Shown here: positions 1,877-20,611 of the stretch, in pieces | How positions within the stretch are numbered: the first letter of the stretch is position 1 | Layout of the letters: every line of letters starts with the position of its first letter | IMG/VR virus record: IMGVR_UViG_3300032086_001853 | Location: 1 to 20,611 of that record | Strand: one strand, 5' to 3' | Source: a virus | DNA length: 20,611 nucleotides | Made by a program: the position numbers and the translations under genes | Notes under the pieces: model-generated | Databases searched by the model: none | Told to the model about the DNA's origin: nothing | Seen by the model: the letters and a program-made list of their open reading frames with translations, nothing else

Positions 1877-2155
1877 ATGCCGGGTAGAGAGTGGTTCTTA
1901 CAGCAGAAGAAGGATGAGAACGGTGAGTGGCAATTCACTAGGGTTCTCACTGAAGACGAGGCTAGAGAGCAACTCAGAATGATAAGACAGGGTTGCTTGG
2001 AAGAGACTGATATGTGGACATACATGGATAGATGGAATTCATTGACTGATGCTCAACAAGCGGAATTGTCAGCGTACAGGCAAGCACTTAGGGACATACC
2101 AGCGTGTGATGACCCGTTCAACCCACCATTTCCAAGTAAACCGAGTTGGGTTTAA
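1877..2155 (+). CDS. Tail assembly chaperone-like small protein (Phage_tail_APC type)
   Basis: This 92-residue protein has the layout of the Phage_tail_APC family. A short N-terminal beta region (EWFLQQKKDENGEWQF) is followed by a helical segment, then by the family's hallmark near the C-terminus: a Trp/Asp-containing stretch (DMWTYMDRWNSLTDAQ), YRQALRDIP at residues 67-75, and a proline-rich end with FNPPFPSKP. In phages such proteins are encoded next to tail fibre genes and are thought to assist fibre assembly, which fits the two preceding genes. The ATG lies 4 bases after the previous stop. The ribosome site is weak (GTGATAGT), so translation may be coupled to the gene before it. Confidence 0.7.
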   Translation: MPGREWFLQQKKDENGEWQFTRVLTEDEAREQLRMIRQGCLEETDMWTYMDRWNSLTDAQQAELSAYRQALRDIPACDDPFNPPFPSKPSWV

Positions 2156-7451: not shown

Positions 7452-8317
7452 TACATCCAACTCTCTTCTTGTGCTTTCTCACATATGCCGTAGAAACTAC
7501 AGTTAGAGCATGTCTTGAAGAAATACTTCGCGTAGAAGTCATCCTTCTCGTATGCTGCAACTAATTCAACTAGTCCCTTCAATACTGCTGTGTGACTAGA
7601 CGTTTTGCATTCCTCGACATATGTGTAATTTGATGCGGGATAATACCATCCCCAATACTTCATGTCGTATTCGGGGTTGAGGCCGTTCTCCCTGAGAACA
7701 TCGGGTGATGAGTTATCGAATAGCAATTTGTAGAATGCCATCTCCTTCCTCATCATCGTTCTCTTGTAGTCCTTCCAAGGACCAGTCTTCAATTCCATAG
7801 GAATATAGAATTCATCTTCCTGAAAGATACGGTCAATGATTCCCTGTATGTGTACCCTATATGGTCTAGATAACTCTGCCTTCGGGTTCCAGTCAGGTTG
7901 TATCACTATCTCAGCATCAAGCATAACCTCATTGCCCGGTGGAAGATACTCGCTCAACCTACCTTCATCCCTTGCCTCAAGGAATCTTTGGGTCGCTGTA
8001 GTCGCCATTGTGTCGTACATGTCCACATGGTCATCTACGGGAAACAGGCTCATGCAGTATGACTTTACCTCGGACGGAGACATGCTCTCTGCCTTCTTGA
8101 TATCAAATGTATTGAAGAAATCCTCTTGAGAGTTATGCACTATACTACCCTTAGCCATTGCTGGTGATTGGTCTATCGGCATCCTCAAGGGATACTGAAA
8201 GAAATACTTCTGTGGACACCACTGAAACGAGCCGAATGAAGACTTCGTTATCTTCAATATCGGCTGGCTCTCATCATCATAGTCAATAGGATTCCATGCG
8301 TATGTATATTCTCTCAT
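7451..8317 (-). CDS. Cas4/RecB-like PD-(D/E)XK nuclease with four-Cys Fe-S signature
   Basis: This 288-residue protein has the layout of the Cas4/AddB/Dna2 nuclease group. C34 lies in FQWCPQKYFFQY, the usual first cysteine next to the N-terminal helix. H61 is in KGSIVHNSQEDF. The nuclease core is GIIDRI with D162 and MELKTG with E175 and K177, followed by Y196 in the QxxxY-like helix KEMAFYKLLF. The C-terminus carries C270, C273 and C279 (CSNCSFYGIC), completing a likely [4Fe-4S] cluster. Such enzymes process DNA ends or flaps. No cas1, cas2 or repeats are present, so a replication or recombination role (Dna2- or RecB-like) is more likely than CRISPR adaptation. I chose ATG 8317, which overlaps the polymerase stop (TAATG), over a GTG nine bases upstream. 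Confidence 0.88.
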   Translation of the reverse strand: MREYTYAWNPIDYDDESQPILKITKSSFGSFQWCPQKYFFQYPLRMPIDQSPAMAKGSIVHNSQEDFFNTFDIKKAESMSPSEVKSYCMSLFPVDDHVDMYDTMATTATQRFLEARDEGRLSEYLPPGNEVMLDAEIVIQPDWNPKAELSRPYRVHIQGIIDRIFQEDEFYIPMELKTGPWKDYKRTMMRKEMAFYKLLFDNSSPDVLRENGLNPEYDMKYWGWYYPASNYTYVEECKTSSHTAVLKGLVELVAAYEKDDFYAKYFFKTCSNCSFYGICEKAQEESWM

Positions 8318-9219
8318 TAAAACCACTCATCCAATGTTTTCTGCTTGCTGTCTTTTCTTATTTGTGCGTCGTCCCATCCCATCGCTCTGAACACAGGGCT
8401 GGCCTTCTTTATCACTGATTCAGCGTAATGGCTCCAATCAGGAGTGAAGTTCTTGAAATCTTCAATCTTCAACGCTGAGTAATAATCAGGCTTCACCACT
8501 GTTTGCTTTATTGGGTGAACAAGCGTATGTGGGTTGTTTCTAACTTTGAGATATAGATATGAATCATCTATGGGTTCCCTGTTCAGTTTGTTGTATAGTA
8601 GAGTGCCGATTATACCTGAACCAATAATCGGTGACTTACCTGCTGACTTCCAACCCTTTCCTGACTTGGATACTGTTCTCAAATCCATATCAGAACAGCA
8701 TACTGCCTTCGTTAGAAACATGAGGCTAGATGTCGTATCGCAGTTCCTACAGATTACGTGGAACCTCTCAGGCCTGTATCTAGACCTCTTGAGCAACCTT
8801 TGTATATCTACATTACCCGATTTGACATTCTCATAGATATCATTGAGATAGGAAACCACCTCTTCTTCTGACTTCTCTCCAACCCACATATTCAGAACAG
8901 AAATCTGTACTTCCTTATCCAGTGGTGTTTCTGATATTCTCTTAGCGGTAAATCCGGTCATGACGAATTCTTCTTCATCTAGGAACTCCCCATCCTTCCA
9001 AGTAATCAAACCAGCATTTCTGTTCTTGGTAGCACCCACACCTAGGGTTCTGAAATACTTCTCAAACTCCAAAGTGACAGGATGCTCATCAAGACCCAAT
9101 ACATTCGGGAACTTAGAGCGAACATGCTCATTCAATGTAGAGAGAACAGACTGTGCTTTCTCAACACTGTCCACTTGACAGTATATCGAATCTGTGTGTC
9201 CATATACCACTTTCATCAT
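8317..9219 (-). CDS. polB: DNA polymerase B, C-terminal part (motif C, thumb, PIP box)
   Basis: This 300-residue protein carries the end of a family B polymerase. Motif C reads VVYGHTDSIY at residues 4-13; the usual first Asp (YGDTDS) is His, while the catalytic D10 of TDS is kept. The thumb region follows. It contains an unusual CRNC at 157-160 and CC at 174-175, which could bind zinc. The protein ends exactly with QKTLDEWF (293-300), a textbook archaeal PCNA-interacting box. It begins just where the N-terminal part stops in the family order, so the two chains should assemble into one enzyme. The ATG at 9219 has GGAGG just upstream and overlaps the stop of the zinc-finger gene. A second ATG follows at 9216. 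Confidence 0.9.
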   Translation of the reverse strand: MMKVVYGHTDSIYCQVDSVEKAQSVLSTLNEHVRSKFPNVLGLDEHPVTLEFEKYFRTLGVGATKNRNAGLITWKDGEFLDEEEFVMTGFTAKRISETPLDKEVQISVLNMWVGEKSEEEVVSYLNDIYENVKSGNVDIQRLLKRSRYRPERFHVICRNCDTTSSLMFLTKAVCCSDMDLRTVSKSGKGWKSAGKSPIIGSGIIGTLLYNKLNREPIDDSYLYLKVRNNPHTLVHPIKQTVVKPDYYSALKIEDFKNFTPDWSHYAESVIKKASPVFRAMGWDDAQIRKDSKQKTLDEWF

Positions 9220-9392
9220 TCTTCCTCCCTGAATTGTCTAGCCCACTTCAACGGACTCATCATGAAGATGTAGTTGTTGAGCCAGTTCTGTACGCAAAAA
9301 TTGCAGACAAAACCGCTCTTCGTATCGCAACCAGTAGCATAATTACTACTTTCATGACACACATAGCATTCCTTGAATATCGATTCTTTCAT
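9216..9392 (-). CDS. Small zinc-finger protein encoded between the two polymerase parts
   Basis: This 58-residue frame fills the gap between the two polymerase genes exactly. Its ATG at 9392 overlaps the stop of the N-terminal part (ATGA) and its TGA overlaps the ATG of the C-terminal part. It has Cys pairs CYVC at residues 9-12 and CNFC at 30-33 plus C22, suggesting a zinc-binding knuckle, and then an aromatic/basic tail (NYIFMMSPLKWARQF). No intein, splice or endonuclease signature is visible. It could be a third subunit bridging the split polymerase, or an unrelated small regulator; both are inferences. The ribosome site is weak (GTGAGGCAG upstream). Confidence 0.65.
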   Translation of the reverse strand: MKESIFKECYVCHESSNYATGCDTKSGFVCNFCVQNWLNNYIFMMSPLKWARQFREEE

Positions 9393-11050
9393 GATAACTG
9401 CCTCACTTTGAATGCCGCTTCACGAATGGCCTCTCTAGCACTAGCGGTAATACTTGCTGCTAAGTCAACATCAGCCCAACCGAATCCCTGATACGCAATG
9501 ATACCATAGAAAGATGCCATCAGTCTCTTGACTGCAAGTTGATTGTTGTTCCACTTGGCATACTCAGATTTGCTCTCTGCTTGCTTCATGTTCTTCTTGT
9601 ATTGATTCCTTAACTCCTTCAACTCCAATACTGCCCTAGGCAATAGACCTAGAGCATCTGTGTTGTAATACAGCATCTTGGTATCCTCTATGTCAGAGAA
9701 GTCCTTGGGTGTGAATATGTTCACAGCGAACTCAGTGGGAGTATTTGATTTAGTCTCCCAAGATATGTTTCTCGCTATCATCATAGATGGGTATAGTCCA
9801 GCGAAATCAAATGCTGCTACACCTAGGTGAAGACCATTCGTTCCTGCTTCCAATGGGTCATATACCATAGCACCATCATAGTCAACCCTATCTTCCTTCC
9901 TACCTGTAGGAGCCTTCCATGATGCATTTCTCATGAAGTATATGCCTCCCATGTGACTAGCATAGAAACAAGCATCGAATGGTGCTTTCAGAAGACGCTG
10001 AAGGGATACTATCGCCTCACTGGTGAAGTTTTCCTCATCAATTCTCTTGATTAGGTCAACATCCAGTTTAGCATACTTGAGATAAGTGTCGGTATCCTCC
10101 AACCATCCTCTTGAGAAGAACTCAGACTTCTCAGGAAACTTCTCACTGACTAGTTTCTGCTCATTCAATACTTCTGTTGAGATATAATCCAATGACATCG
10201 AGGGTAGTGTGCCTCTTTGCGAATCATTCCACTGTCTCTCGAATGCTAGGTCTAAATTAAGCGTTATTCTCCCTTTAATTGGCTGCTCGATAGGAGAAAA
10301 CGACTCTTTTCTGAACGTGTAGCCATCTTTTGACTCGTAAAAGCCCGTTATTTCCAACATTGGAGAGATAATTCTCGCATCAATACCGTTTTTCACGCAT
10401 CTTTCTAATAGTTTTGGTAAATCGAACTGATTTCCGAACCATGATATAAGCATATCAGGGTCATCTAACACTATTCTCGTTAGGAACGATAATAACATTT
10501 CATTTTCGTTATTGAAGATTAATATATCTTTAGATTCATAATGATTATCTTCAGGAAACCATGCATATTGATGAAATACCTCTTCATAGTTATCATACGC
10601 TATGATACAAGTAATAGCACCACTATGTTCACCGCCTTGTTGCCATTCCATATCCCAATAATACTTTCTTAGACGATATTCGGATATGTTTTGTATTCTG
10701 TCAACGGCATACCTGTGATGATAGGGTACATCAGCCTCATATGTCTGATTGAACGCTTCTCTCACATCCCTCATGTGCTTTGGATGATTAGGAGTGTAGT
10801 ATACCTTCGATAGAGACTCCCCATCTAAGTTCAACGCACAGTCATGCTCATATGTAAATTCAAATGGAGATGTCTTCTTGCTCCACTTGTTAGATACAAA
10901 GGCACTTTGCTTGTTAGCATCCTGCTTCTTGATGTAGAAGTATGGCTGGAAATCATTGTGGGAAAGAACCTCTTGCCTTCTATGTGGCTTGTCTCCCTCT
11001 CCTTCTCGCCATCTAATACAGATGCCTTCATTCGTTGGTGAAATTATCAT
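9389..11050 (-). CDS. polB: DNA polymerase B, N-terminal part (exonuclease, motifs A and B)
   Basis: This 553-residue protein contains the proofreading domain and the first half of the polymerase domain of a family B enzyme. The exonuclease residues are all present: D133 and E135 in YWDMEW, N207 and D210 in GNQFDLP, and Y326 and D330 in YAKLD. Motif A is FDFAGLYPSMM with D415. Motif B is VKRLMASFYG (K508 to G516), where the family's Asn of NSxYG is Ala. The chain ends at TASAREAIREAAFKVRQLS, just before where motif C would follow; motif C is on a separate gene 170 bases downstream. The start ATG 11050 has AGGT six bases upstream and lies 4 bases after the PCNA stop. Together with its partner it is the replicative polymerase of this element. 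Confidence 0.92.
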   Translation of the reverse strand: MIISPTNEGICIRWREGEGDKPHRRQEVLSHNDFQPYFYIKKQDANKQSAFVSNKWSKKTSPFEFTYEHDCALNLDGESLSKVYYTPNHPKHMRDVREAFNQTYEADVPYHHRYAVDRIQNISEYRLRKYYWDMEWQQGGEHSGAITCIIAYDNYEEVFHQYAWFPEDNHYESKDILIFNNENEMLLSFLTRIVLDDPDMLISWFGNQFDLPKLLERCVKNGIDARIISPMLEITGFYESKDGYTFRKESFSPIEQPIKGRITLNLDLAFERQWNDSQRGTLPSMSLDYISTEVLNEQKLVSEKFPEKSEFFSRGWLEDTDTYLKYAKLDVDLIKRIDEENFTSEAIVSLQRLLKAPFDACFYASHMGGIYFMRNASWKAPTGRKEDRVDYDGAMVYDPLEAGTNGLHLGVAAFDFAGLYPSMMIARNISWETKSNTPTEFAVNIFTPKDFSDIEDTKMLYYNTDALGLLPRAVLELKELRNQYKKNMKQAESKSEYAKWNNNQLAVKRLMASFYGIIAYQGFGWADVDLAASITASAREAIREAAFKVRQLS

Positions 11051-16594: not shown

Positions 16595-16907
16595 TTTCGT
16601 CAGGGTCAATTAACCTCACATCCATTATTTCTGTATATTTACTATCACATGCAGCACAGTCTATCTGTGCCATGTAATACTTGAATTCACCTTCGTACAT
16701 TATTCCGGCTTCGTAGGCGAAACTCTTGTCATTGCATTCCCTACACCCATTGAATATCAATAGCAATAGGGACTTCTCTATTATCTCATCATCACTCGCT
16801 GTCTCGTCGTATTCAGGAATTATGCTTCTAGCCATGTGGCATGAACTACATAGATTACCATACTCTGCCATGTATACATTACAACGAGTGCATCTCAAGT
16901 GAATCAA
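16515..16907 (-). CDS. Protein with two zinc-ribbon pairs
   Basis: This 130-residue protein has eight cysteines as four CxxC knuckles: CTRC at 6-9, CSSC at 20-23, CREC at 55-58 and CAAC at 84-87, forming two probable zinc sites. Between them is a helix (DDEIIEKSLLLLIF). The last 30 residues are acidic, Gly/Asn/Thr-rich and probably disordered; they are read from DNA that also encodes the P-loop of the next gene in another frame. The likely start is TTG 16907, which forms a TTGA overlap with the preceding stop; a second TTG lies nine bases on. The role is unknown: RNA-polymerase-associated or nucleic-acid-binding ribbons look like this. Confidence 0.65.
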   Translation of the reverse strand: MIHLRCTRCNVYMAEYGNLCSSCHMARSIIPEYDETASDDEIIEKSLLLLIFNGCRECNDKSFAYEAGIMYEGEFKYYMAQIDCAACDSKYTEIMDVRLIDPDENETDTTNTNGGQTRNGKDDEGDGIPV

Positions 16908-17323
16908 GCCACCGAGATTATTTCTGCTTCAGGATTCTTCAACTCAATCATTCTGTCTAGACCAGTCATCGTGTGCTGTAGATTTCTATCGAATATTTCT
17001 ACAGCCTCTCTGAATGTATCCCAAGAGTCCCTGACATCAGGAAGATGTCGTGGTAGTAATTCACAAAGCCTCGTTAGGTTCTTTTTTCCAGTCACCATTA
17101 ATATCGGTCTTGGTCTAGTTTTATGCTCCTTCTCCTTATACTTGGATTCTATGTTGTGCTGTAGGAGAGTGCGTTGCACTGCCTGAAGCATTCTAGCACC
17201 TCCCCTGAAACTAACCTTCAATCTCACTCTGTATCCGATACGAGTGCTATCATCCTTCGATACATGTATCTCAGTCTTAGCCAGCGAGAGCAGTATGCCT
17301 ATTAATTGGTCCTTTGAATACAT
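16904..17323 (-). CDS. Possible LAGLIDADG-fold protein
   Basis: This 139-residue protein has a stretch reading GYRVRLKVSFRGGARMLQAV, then LLQHNIESKYKEKEH, RPRPILMVTGKKNLTRLCEL and LLPRHLPDV. This order (strand, helix, 'gI.sk', strand with 'I.g..nl..l..llp') is that of LAGLIDADG-type domains found in homing endonucleases and in non-catalytic relatives of archaea. A clear LAGLIDADG catalytic helix is not evident at the N-terminus (LIGILLSLAKTE), so an inactive DNA-binding version is more likely than a working homing enzyme. ATG 17323 has GAGTGA four bases upstream, inside the end of the previous gene; an ATG at 17353 is an alternative. The match is remembered, not computed. Confidence 0.4.
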   Translation of the reverse strand: MYSKDQLIGILLSLAKTEIHVSKDDSTRIGYRVRLKVSFRGGARMLQAVQRTLLQHNIESKYKEKEHKTRPRPILMVTGKKNLTRLCELLPRHLPDVRDSWDTFREAVEIFDRNLQHTMTGLDRMIELKNPEAEIISVA

Positions 17324-17327
17324 CGAA

Positions 17328-17825
17328 TCACTCTTTCGCATAGTACGTGTCACGTAAATGCAAAGCCCAATCGTCTGCTTCGGGATTTATATGTTGTGCC
17401 TCTACTTTGTCCAACTTAGGCCAATACACATGTCTAGGGGAAACTCGGTTGGTGTCTTCCCTAATTGCATTATCAACCGCGTAATCAGCAGCCAATGTCA
17501 CGAATGACTCAAGCATGTCATGCAAGTAATATGACATGGACCTAGATACCGAGAACTTCTTCTCATGTGATTCCGATAAGTCCTTCACGGTATCCTTGAA
17601 CATCTTCATCACATTGATGTTCTTGGCCTCTCTTCTCTTCTTCTTCTTGACCAATGGCTCAGGAACTATCAGTTCACTACCCTCGAAATAAGGACATCGA
17701 TTGACATCTATCTTCCTAGGCCTTCCTCTCTTTCCCACTTCATTCAAGTAAGCATAGCCATCTTCTATCTTTATGCAGGTGTATACCTTACCGTCTATCA
17801 TCGTACCAGCATTTACTATAATCAT
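17328..17825 (-). CDS. Histone-fold candidate with AT-hook-like motif
   Basis: This 165-residue protein starts at ATG 17825, overlapping the ligase stop (TGATG), with GGAG eight bases upstream. Residues 32-38 are RGRPRK-type, an AT-hook-like minor-groove binder, and a lysine patch (KKKKRREAK) follows at about 60-68. From about 91 to 135 comes FSVSRSMSYYLHDMLESF, then a long helix (VTLAADYAVDNAIRED) and TNRVSPRHVYW. This matches the histone-fold order: short helix, long central helix, then a loop with 'rVs..Hv' leading to the third helix. The protein would bind and compact DNA. Cellular archaeal histones are about 65-70 residues, so this is an extended form. Detection is by pattern and needs structure prediction. 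Confidence 0.55.
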   Translation of the reverse strand: MIIVNAGTMIDGKVYTCIKIEDGYAYLNEVGKRGRPRKIDVNRCPYFEGSELIVPEPLVKKKKRREAKNINVMKMFKDTVKDLSESHEKKFSVSRSMSYYLHDMLESFVTLAADYAVDNAIREDTNRVSPRHVYWPKLDKVEAQHINPEADDWALHLRDTYYAKE

Positions 17826-19354
17826 CAAATCATCTCCATTATATCTTGTAGCGTATTTATCTCACTAGCATACTTATCCTCACGTATCGATTTCACTCTT
17901 GGGAATCTTATTCCATACCCATCATCTGTTTTTGTTATAGCCTCAAAGACAACAGTAAGAACTATTCTAGGTAGGAAGAAATACTCTGTTCCACTTACCT
18001 TCTCTATATTCTTCCTCAATCTACCAGTTAGTCTCTCTAGGTCTGCATCACTTAATCCAGTGCCTACATAACTCAGAAACTCGTAGTTGCCATTGTTCAA
18101 TACAGCAACACCGAATGAGCCGAATAGTCCCATCCTGTTTCCTGTACCCATCTTGCCCTTCACAATTACGACATCTAATTCATATTGTGCTGGTTTGTAT
18201 TTCCACCAAGAGTTGCTTCGCCTTCCAGCATCATACTTTGATGTGGCATCTTTCAGCATAATACCTTCAAAGCCTTCCTCAATCGACATGTTGTATAGTG
18301 CATTAATGTTGAACGACTCATCCTCTGTCTCGTAATGGTACTTACAATGAGGATAACTAGTTTTGGATAGTATCTGCTTTCTTTCTAACTGCGTCTTCTC
18401 CATAAGATTCTCACTATTGTAGAAAAGTATGTCAAAAGCAACCACTTCTATTGGACACTTCTCAACTGCCTTGAGAACGTCCTTAGAATGCACCCTAGTA
18501 GCCATCCTATGATGAGGTAATGGTCTTCCGGTAGTATCTACAGGGTAAAACTCACAGTCCAATATGACGCTCGTATCGGGCCATTTTAGGGCCATGTCCA
18601 AAACATCGGGAAACTTGTCAGTGACTCTCTTTCCCTTCCTATTGAAGATAGAGACAGTATTGATGTTCTTATGTATCTGATACCTATTACCATCGAACTT
18701 GTAGTCTACTATTGTATTCGTGAACTTTCTCTTTCCGGGTCTAGGTTTAGCCAGCATCGGTTTGATGAATTGACCTACGGTGATATTCGACTCAGGCTCG
18801 GTTTCATCCTCTAAACACTCTACGATGTAGGAAAGGGGATGTAGTTTGGCCCACTCATATACGGTATCATTCTGATAGTATTCAGCGATGCCCTTGGTTA
18901 GATTCTTGGTCATGATGCCAATTCTAGGCTTTCTGAGCCAAAAACGTATAAACCATTTCAACTCTATCCTCGACATGTTTGTTATTGCTTCACGTAATAG
19001 AATCGTATTGTTAGAGTCGAATCTATTACAATCTAATGATAATAGATTATCCATTTGCTTTAGCGTTAAATTACTCTTATCTTCATTACCCCACATAAAA
19101 TGAAATAATGACTCGCCTAAATCCTCATAGACACTACAGAAACTAAGCAGTTCCTCTTCAAATACATCGAAGAAAGAGGAACACCATTTAATCGCTTTAT
19201 TCTCAGCGATGTTATTAGGCTCATATTCTAGATTAAGAATCTTAACCATAGTAGCCTTATCATCGAATGATGAGAAGTTATTACGAAAGTATTCCTTGAA
19301 GTTATTAGGTGATTGCTCATATACCTCTAGAAAATAACACAAGTTCCACATCAT
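17825..19354 (-). CDS. lig: ATP-dependent DNA ligase
   Basis: This 509-residue enzyme would seal nicks, for example between Okazaki fragments. The N-terminal part (1-190) resembles the DNA-binding domain of ligase-I-type enzymes. Nucleotidyltransferase motifs follow: motif I VDYKFDGNR with the adenylated K219, motif III LDCEFYPVD with E268, motif IV EGFEGIMLKD at 360-369, and motif V WWKYKPAQYELD with lysines 385 and 387. The C-terminal OB domain contains FGSFGVAV and ends with FPRVKSIREDK (motif VI region). Length is a little under the 550-600 residues usual in archaea. Its ATG overlaps the stop of the preceding gene (ATGA). It is transcribed between two histone-fold candidate genes. Confidence 0.93.
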   Translation of the reverse strand: MMWNLCYFLEVYEQSPNNFKEYFRNNFSSFDDKATMVKILNLEYEPNNIAENKAIKWCSSFFDVFEEELLSFCSVYEDLGESLFHFMWGNEDKSNLTLKQMDNLLSLDCNRFDSNNTILLREAITNMSRIELKWFIRFWLRKPRIGIMTKNLTKGIAEYYQNDTVYEWAKLHPLSYIVECLEDETEPESNITVGQFIKPMLAKPRPGKRKFTNTIVDYKFDGNRYQIHKNINTVSIFNRKGKRVTDKFPDVLDMALKWPDTSVILDCEFYPVDTTGRPLPHHRMATRVHSKDVLKAVEKCPIEVVAFDILFYNSENLMEKTQLERKQILSKTSYPHCKYHYETEDESFNINALYNMSIEEGFEGIMLKDATSKYDAGRRSNSWWKYKPAQYELDVVIVKGKMGTGNRMGLFGSFGVAVLNNGNYEFLSYVGTGLSDADLERLTGRLRKNIEKVSGTEYFFLPRIVLTVVFEAITKTDDGYGIRFPRVKSIREDKYASEINTLQDIMEMI

Positions 19355-19911
19355 AGTATTGCCGCCAACTCATCCCACATATGCTCATTAGCAGTGAAAC
19401 TAAGTCTGCTATAGTATGGGTTCCTTATCCTAATAGAAGTATAGACTCTAAAGGAAACCACTTTTATCTCATCTCCTAGGTTGAACTTTCCGCTCTGCCA
19501 AAAGTCCCTGTCTCTGATATATCCATCTCCAACATTCAAGAAATCCTCGTTGATTACTATGTTATCGGATTGCCAATCGACATCACTATCCATCCATTGA
19601 CCTCCCTCCACTATAATCACATCATGTCGGAAGTCTCCTTCCTTATCCTTGAGTAGTTCATCAATGAACCACTGCAAGAAACATACGTTGTAGTTTGGGT
19701 GTCCCTTGAGATTGAAGTTGTGAAAGAAATCTCTATCGCTCTTATCTATGAAAACATTCTCTTTCTTCTTGTTGGCTTCAGGTGGGTTAGGGAACTTGTA
19801 GGACCCTGTGCTTTCCATCCTGAAGTCTCGTATATCCAATATATCTGACATGCCTGATGCGATTAGTGTCTTCTGATATTCGTTCCACTCACTCAAGGGA
19901 AGCAGCCCCAT
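19351..19911 (-). CDS. Hypothetical protein, 186 residues
   Basis: This 186-residue acidic protein is rich in Trp, Asp and Phe (KSDRDFFHNFNL, CFLQWFIDELLKDKEG, DSDVDWQSDNIVINEDFL). It has no cysteine motif, P-loop or membrane helix. The C-terminal half looks like beta strands (DEIKVVSFRVYTSIRIRN, YYSRLSFTANEHMW). The ATG at 19911 lies inside the last codons of the histone-fold candidate gene (23-base overlap). Its stop overlaps the ligase start, so it is translated with both. No family is recognised; a DNA-mimic or ligase accessory role cannot be judged from sequence. Confidence 0.6.
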   Translation of the reverse strand: MGLLPLSEWNEYQKTLIASGMSDILDIRDFRMESTGSYKFPNPPEANKKKENVFIDKSDRDFFHNFNLKGHPNYNVCFLQWFIDELLKDKEGDFRHDVIIVEGGQWMDSDVDWQSDNIVINEDFLNVGDGYIRDRDFWQSGKFNLGDEIKVVSFRVYTSIRIRNPYYSRLSFTANEHMWDELAAIL

Positions 19912-20128
19912 CGTTGTTTCCCATTCTAGAGAAGAGAGTCACATGCACATGTCTCTCACTCACCTTACTGTCTCCCGACTTATTGAACTCTGATACCAAG
20001 TCATCGAGAAAGTCTTGGAAGTGTGCTGTCACTACTTTCTCAAGTGCATCATACGTGTTCGGGTTAACATAAGTCCATTCATCTAACTTGTTCTTCAATG
20101 CTATCTTCATTTTCCTGTTTGAAATCAT
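19889..20128 (-). CDS. Small histone-fold candidate
   Basis: This protein of about 79 residues has the size of an archaeal histone. A basic N-terminus (NRKMKIALKNKLDEW) is followed by VNPNTYDALEKVVTAHFQ, the long helix FQDFLDDLVSEFNKSG and the loop SKVSERHVHVTLF. In histone folds the second loop typically has a Thr/Ser-Val/Ile pair before the third helix, as in 'kvs.rHV', and the same phrase occurs in the larger candidate encoded just past the ligase. It could pair with that protein. The start is uncertain: ATG 20128 has GAGTGG in front, and ATG 20110 is a close alternative. Other small DNA-binding folds remain possible. Confidence 0.5.
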   Translation of the reverse strand: MISNRKMKIALKNKLDEWTYVNPNTYDALEKVVTAHFQDFLDDLVSEFNKSGDSKVSERHVHVTLFSRMGNNDGAASLE

Positions 20129-20330
20129 AATTACCACTCATCATTCTGTTTAGAGTCTCGACTACCTTAGCAGCCTCGCTCTGATTGAACCTAACTCCCT
20201 TTCTCGTAGGGCTACCGTTTTGATACCAACGAATATCCACAATGGGTATATTCCAGTATTCGCCCGTTAAAACAACCAATTCTTGTGATGGACTCCTAGG
20301 AATCCTTACTAGTATCCTCTCATTCTTCAT
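20079..20330 (-). CDS. PC4-like single-stranded DNA-binding protein
   Basis: This 83-residue protein has the outline of the PC4/p15 transcription coactivator fold: strands RILVRIPRS, ELVVLTGEYW and PIVDIRWYQN, then TRKGVRFNQSEAAKVVETLN, where 'VDIR.yy....p..KGi.ls' followed by a helix is the family hallmark. The tail (QENEDSIEEQVR) is acidic. PC4-like proteins bind melted or single-stranded DNA as dimers and act in transcription or replication. ATG 20330 with GAGTGG upstream is preferred over a GTG nine bases earlier. The 3' end overlaps the histone-fold candidate gene in another frame, so they are likely co-translated. Confidence 0.55.
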   Translation of the reverse strand: MKNERILVRIPRSPSQELVVLTGEYWNIPIVDIRWYQNGSPTRKGVRFNQSEAAKVVETLNRMMSGNYDFKQENEDSIEEQVR

Positions 20331-20611
20331 ACCAACCACTCTTGAAATTGTTTAGTTCCTTCAACGATTTAAAGTATCTAGGAGATGCGAGGGCGTCTAG
20401 GCGGTTCACTACCCAAACAACACCTCCCAAACTCGCTATCTTCACTATCTCATACTGACCATCATCGATATCAACCACCTCATCAGTAGTAATATCGGGG
20501 GTCATTCCATACTGCTTCGTAAGTAAAGTGCCTATGCTACCAATATGCTCAGCAACATACTTCACAATCAAAGAACGCTGTATGGGTACTTTAGCATCAA
20601 CAGTCACACTA
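20320..20611 (-). CDS. Hypothetical protein, N-terminus probably outside the window
   Basis: The frame runs from the right edge to 20320 without a stop. A GTG at 20607 could be the start, but the frame is still open before it, so the true start is probably outside. The visible 95 residues show a helix (RSLIVKYVAEHIGSIGTLL), an acidic strand region (TTDEVVDIDDGQYEIVKI) and a hydrophobic strand (GGVVWVVNRLDA), ending with a helix (KSLKELNNFKSG). No family is recognised. Its TGA lies just inside the PC4-like gene. Confidence 0.5.
   Translation of the reverse strand, partial: SVTVDAKVPIQRSLIVKYVAEHIGSIGTLLTKQYGMTPDITTDEVVDIDDGQYEIVKIASLGGVVWVVNRLDALASPRYFKSLKELNNFKSGWYEE

Follow-up and report, generated by a model that had tools for sequence, protein, structure and literature searches.

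Two small proteins encoded around the DNA ligase gene of an archaeal tailed virus, H1 and H2, are both supported as histone folds by profile searches and structure models. Our preferred reading, to which we give a probability of about 55%, is that they form a diverged histone-fold pair that binds viral DNA inside the infected archaeon; the pairing, the DNA binding, the timing and the role are what we infer beyond the fold. The window analysed here is the entire virus record IMGVR_UViG_3300032086_001853 (20.6 kb), and its relevant features are collected in Table 1. The original prediction of histone-fold candidates on both sides of the ligase gene was confirmed by the open reading frames, by controlled profile searches and by AF2 models.

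Table 1. Features of the H1-H2 region and the tail gene of the window. Residue numbering of H2 starts at the Ile at position 20125.
Feature	Position	Strand	Details and basis
H1 gene	17328..17825	-	165 aa, ATG; ORF list, homologues in other contigs, AF2, PDB profile matches
H1 N-terminal small beta domain	17667..17807	-	predicted strands within residues 7-53; AF2 pLDDT ~85-91 for most
RGRPRK, AT-hook-like string	17712..17729	-	H1 residues 33-38, between predicted strands
H1 alpha1	17568..17612	-	residues 72-86; AF2
H1 alpha2	17460..17543	-	residues 95-122; AF2
H1 loop 2 and short alpha3	17430..17459	-	residues 123-132, invariant R127 and H132; AF2, alignment
ATP-dependent DNA ligase, between H1 and H2	17825..19354	-	PF01068 E=3e-40, PF04679, PF04675
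H2 gene	19889..20128	-	79 aa, ATG; ORF list, homologues, AF2
H2 alpha3	19919..19957	-	residues 57-69, invariant H59; AF2, alignment
H2 alpha2	19976..20062	-	residues 22-50; AF2
H2 alpha1, basic	20087..20119	-	residues 3-13, invariant K7 and K11; AF2, alignment, charges
Tail-assembly chaperone	1877-2155	+	PF16778 E=1e-8

Both genes belong to a co-directional cluster on the minus strand. In reading direction, a 95-aa ORF and an 86-aa ORF that weakly matches PC4 are followed by H2, a 186-aa ORF (19351-19911) that separates H2 from the ligase, the ligase itself, H1, a LAGLIDADG-like ORF, a 130-aa ORF, an ATPase and RFC, with PCNA and a split PolB further on. The ligase and H1 are joined by a TGATG junction in which the ligase TGA shares one base with the H1 ATG. 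As a yardstick for the order Magrovirales, we used an archaeal tailed virus that encodes PolB, RFC, PCNA, ligase and ERCC4 nuclease and whose replication and structural modules are opposed. The window may belong to this order: PolB, RFC, ligase, ERCC4 nuclease and the tail chaperone were identified, and PCNA was assigned by eye from the sequence, without a Pfam match. Because this gene content is magrovirus-like, the host presumably belongs to the order Poseidoniales. The co-directional genes, the archaeal-type replisome and the tail-assembly chaperone agree with the earlier description of two histone-like chains that a tailed virus of archaea encodes in a single cluster.

The neighbouring genes have their own particularities. 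The 86-aa ORF upstream of H2 (20079-20339), with its weak match to the transcription cofactor PC4 (E=0.009), is conserved among magrovirus-like contigs. The 186-aa ORF was seen only in contigs near-identical to the window, plus one distant match in contig L085, far from the H2/ligase place. The LAGLIDADG-like gene after H1 (16904-17353) scores 22.7 bits against LAGLIDADG_3 for a Pfam cut-off of 22.5, is next to the ligase/H1 site of almost every magrovirus-like contig examined and probably starts at an ATG just after H1 rather than at the listed GTG. PolB (8317-11050) is split, its ORFs 9389-11050 and 8317-9219 flanking a small Cys-rich ORF (9216-9392). The window's ligase, together with that of contigs L006 and L009, stands on a very long branch, separated from the other magrovirus ligases by ~3 changes per column, and the RFC of the same group has no such branch (~1.1 changes per column); the window ligase gene, at its site between H2 and H1, may be a replacement for an earlier one.

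Taken as single sequences, the H1 and H2 of the window found no useful match in Pfam, PHROGs, NCBIfam or the PDB, but profiles of their relatives did. All PDB matches of the H1 profile with E<1 were histone folds (22/22 and 20/20), HmvA (E=0.004) and NC2beta (E=0.0085) being the best. When 24 virus records were scanned with PF00808, the archaeal histone/NF-Y family, ten matches were obtained, every one at H1 or H2, and an H2 relative matched the family at full length (residues 5-64, E=0.004). These single E-values are marginal and nothing rose above the Pfam cut-off, the best PF00808 score (19.1 bits) missing the gathering threshold of the canonical family (21.4). In profile-profile comparisons with archaeal histones, H1 scored 26.4 (maximum of 200 column shuffles, 19.7) and H2 18.9 (maximum 14.2), which is not a strict control, since the helical periodicity is lost on shuffling. 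A narrow archaeal-histone HMM run over the viral ORFs picked up RFC noise and did not discriminate.

Modelling of each chain, one of the checks proposed with the original prediction, returned a histone fold for H2 and a beta domain followed by a histone fold for H1. The H2 model is a textbook case (pLDDT 85.6), with helices of 11, 29 and 13 residues. In the H1 model (pLDDT 76.9), alpha1 and alpha2 measure 15 and 28 residues, alpha3 is stunted to 3 residues in a low-confidence stretch and a C-terminal helix is doubtful. A histone fold has a short, a long (about 28 residues) and a short helix; this arrangement is complete in H2 and is shortened at alpha3 in H1. Foldseek searches of the PDB, with weak E-values (0.03-0.2), matched H2 to structures of nucleosomes, NF-Y, TAFs and the like, with NF-YB reaching the highest TM (0.79), and H1 mostly to H2B, H2A and MHF entries. 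H1 also matched entries that bear Spt4/5 and TnsB, which may reflect its beta domain, and a BFVD fold search with H1 was uninformative. The support for the fold is stronger by sequence for H1 and stronger by predicted structure for H2.

H2 could nevertheless be another small helical or ribbon-helix-helix DNA-binding protein and no histone. The best PDB match of its profile is TraM (E=0.058), the single sequence weakly matches a nickel-responsive regulator (E=0.75) and, of eleven other viral families, the unrelated RFC reaches a higher raw score against archaeal histones than H2 (21.8 over 22 columns against 18.9 over 61 columns), with a weaker P-value. We consider this explanation very improbable in the face of the AF2 model, which has a continuous alpha2, histone-like loops and zero strands, of Foldseek matches that are overwhelmingly histone-fold entries and of the PF00808 match that spans the full domain in relatives.

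The canonical archaeal signature consists of Arg-Val in L1 and, in L2, the Arg of RKTV with an Asp seven residues on (PMC13260811). In a by-eye alignment it is absent here, the L1 site being taken by Ser in H1 and by Tyr in H2, and the Asp site by His in both. At the L2/alpha3 junction, H1 and H2 have in common a His that is preceded, five places earlier, by a basic residue: R127 and H132 are invariant in the H1 alignment, and in that of H2 H59 is invariant and K54 is found in 9/10. The 'VS.RHV' string that first drew attention to the two proteins is present in both ('VSPRHV' in H1, 'VSERHV' in H2), but its conserved part comes down to this His and the basic residue before it. H2 additionally keeps K7 and K11 invariant in its basic first helix. 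In the window, the net charges are +2 for H1 and -2 for H2, compared with +3 for HMfB.

An AT-hook had also been read into H1. Family alignments restrict the RGRP core to ~98%-identical contigs, with RGRMRK, RGRLRK, RGRFKK, RGRYKT or nothing alike elsewhere; since RGRPRK is not conserved, and with the string lying between predicted strands, this reading was dropped.

Homologues of H1 and H2 occupy the matching two places in other magrovirus-like contigs, with identities down to 21-30%, so both ORFs are more than chance. An RFC search gave 80 viral contigs, some >90 kb, and searches with H1, H2 and growing alignments recovered family members of 21-67% identity to the window proteins, plus near-identical ones. 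Co-occurrence was assessed in 47 magrovirus-like contigs in which the PC4-like, ligase and LAGLIDADG-like genes were all placed: 14 carry both genes, 33 carry neither and none carries one alone. In the pair-bearing contigs, H2 lies between the PC4-like gene and the ligase, and H1 between the ligase and the LAGLIDADG-like gene; in the others, the PC4-like gene overlaps the ligase and just 16-298 bases come after the ligase. The 47 contigs are related and do not count as independent, the distribution corresponding to one presence/absence change on the RFC tree (support 94/96) and two on the ligase tree. No copy of H1 or H2 was found elsewhere in the available sequence of each of 15 pair-less records.

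Beyond these contigs, a tblastn search of phage records with H1 returned nothing significant, and a direct scan of bacterial and archaeal genomes with the H1 family gave no match. One pair-bearing contig, L117, was recovered through RFC and is binned to a Maricaulis genome. L117 and L118 both carry a magrovirus-type RFC (59-60% identity) within this bacterial genome assembly, and their binning is very likely contamination. The search for host histones, conducted in the phylum of a Thermoplasmata genome, found PF00808 matches in 22/293 genomes.

Both chains are predicted to have the handshake topology, which in known histone folds requires a partner. The strict co-occurrence of the two genes makes an H1-H2 heterodimer plausible and favours it over two homodimers. 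The comparison of evolutionary distances does not: across seven lineages, the H1-H2 correlation is rho 0.08, which gives no support for co-evolution, and H1 distances track those of the ligase (rho 0.77), both values resting on crude, few and dependent data. In these lineages, mean identity is 27.5% for H2, 38.8% for H1 and 62.6% for RFC, H2 being the fastest-changing of eight proteins compared. H1 may act together with the ligase. An alternative in which each chain forms a homodimer with a function of its own, H1 acting for instance with the ligase or some other protein of the replisome and H2 serving as a regulator that binds DNA, would accommodate these distances as well as the extra domain of H1; we judge this arrangement unlikely, given genes that are never found apart and distance data that are not independent.

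For the preferred H1-H2 pair, the following mechanism can be proposed. H1 and H2 most likely associate by a histone handshake, and the pair would bind the virus's own DNA within the infected archaeon. Both proteins are probably made along with the viral replisome, because their genes lie in its co-directional cluster and the H1 start codon overlaps the ligase stop. H2 would contribute a histone fold of minimal size whose first helix is basic; H1 would add the second fold, its small beta domain and a basic linker, with which it could hold on to DNA or to some other protein. The pair would probably give structure to viral DNA that has just been replicated, or assist viral replication or transcription as a histone-fold accessory; filling the capsid is the less likely task. 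In eukaryotes, NC2, NF-Y and POLE3/POLE4 are such histone-fold accessories of replication and transcription.

The original prediction had also suggested virus-encoded genome packaging. H1 and H2 might indeed compact the viral genome for the virion like the histone doublets of Marseilleviridae: both are histone folds, and PMC11390915 cites giant-virus histones as packaging virion DNA. This proposal was not supported, because the genes sit in the replication cluster, on the strand opposite to the tail gene, because the proteins are near-neutral and because the usual DNA-contact signature is absent. Related viruses of 78-99 kb moreover manage without the pair, and packaging appears to us a poor prospect, somewhat less probable still than the separate homodimers. 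That the genes lie in the replication cluster suggests that their products work inside the cell alongside replication, and action in replication or transcription is more likely than virion packaging.

H1 and H2 can be set against several known systems. They are like archaeal histones and NF-Y (PF00808; HMfB, HmvA, NC2beta) in the predicted three-helix fold, the H1 profile matches and the loop-2 basic residue. They differ from them by scores below the Pfam cut-off, by the lack of the L1 Arg and of the L2 Arg-Asp clamp, by the beta domain and stunted alpha3 of H1 and by being two dissimilar chains whose genes flank that of a ligase. For giant viruses, histones of their own are established (PMC11222145, PMC11500106). 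Those of Marseilleviridae and Medusavirus likewise use unlike histone folds together; however, they are similar to the four core histones of eukaryotes and frequently fused into doublets, whereas H1 and H2 are separate and far more diverged.

Closer to Archaea, and compared here by description, adjacent histone-like proteins of Borgs are predicted to form a heterodimer (ipTM ~0.86); Borgs are extrachromosomal elements too, but huge ones, of methane-oxidising archaea, unlike this tailed virus (PMC12660748). The alpha3 class of 'phage histones' (PMC11390915) brings a histone fold with an alpha3 truncated as in H1 to tailed-virus metagenomes. Its members are single chains with the fold at the N terminus and a tetramerisation helix at the C terminus, whereas H1 begins with a beta domain and is accompanied by a second chain. 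In the presumed host order, the 'cluster 5' histones of Poseidoniales, also compared by description, carry four folds per long acidic chain, in contrast to the single-fold chains of the virus (PMC13260811).

Histones of giant viruses, of Borgs and of one phage class are thus already known, and we found no report of the H1-H2 pair in magroviruses; ICTV profiles and one survey are silent on magrovirus histones, within an incomplete literature search. To our knowledge, good studies of virus histones are confined to the giant viruses of eukaryotes. It is quite possible, though we hold it with less confidence than the DNA-binding pair itself, that a lineage of archaeal tailed viruses possesses its own two-subunit histone, one that arose independently of host histones, is linked to the viral ligase gene and makes up a dedicated viral chromatin or a histone-fold subunit of the replisome. 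If true, such a two-chain system of histone folds, carried by tailed viruses of marine archaea, would constitute a small, separate case of unlike histones pairing. It would bear on why viruses carry histones and on how the paired histones of eukaryotes began, and the pattern of presence and absence among close relatives makes the H1-H2 system testable.
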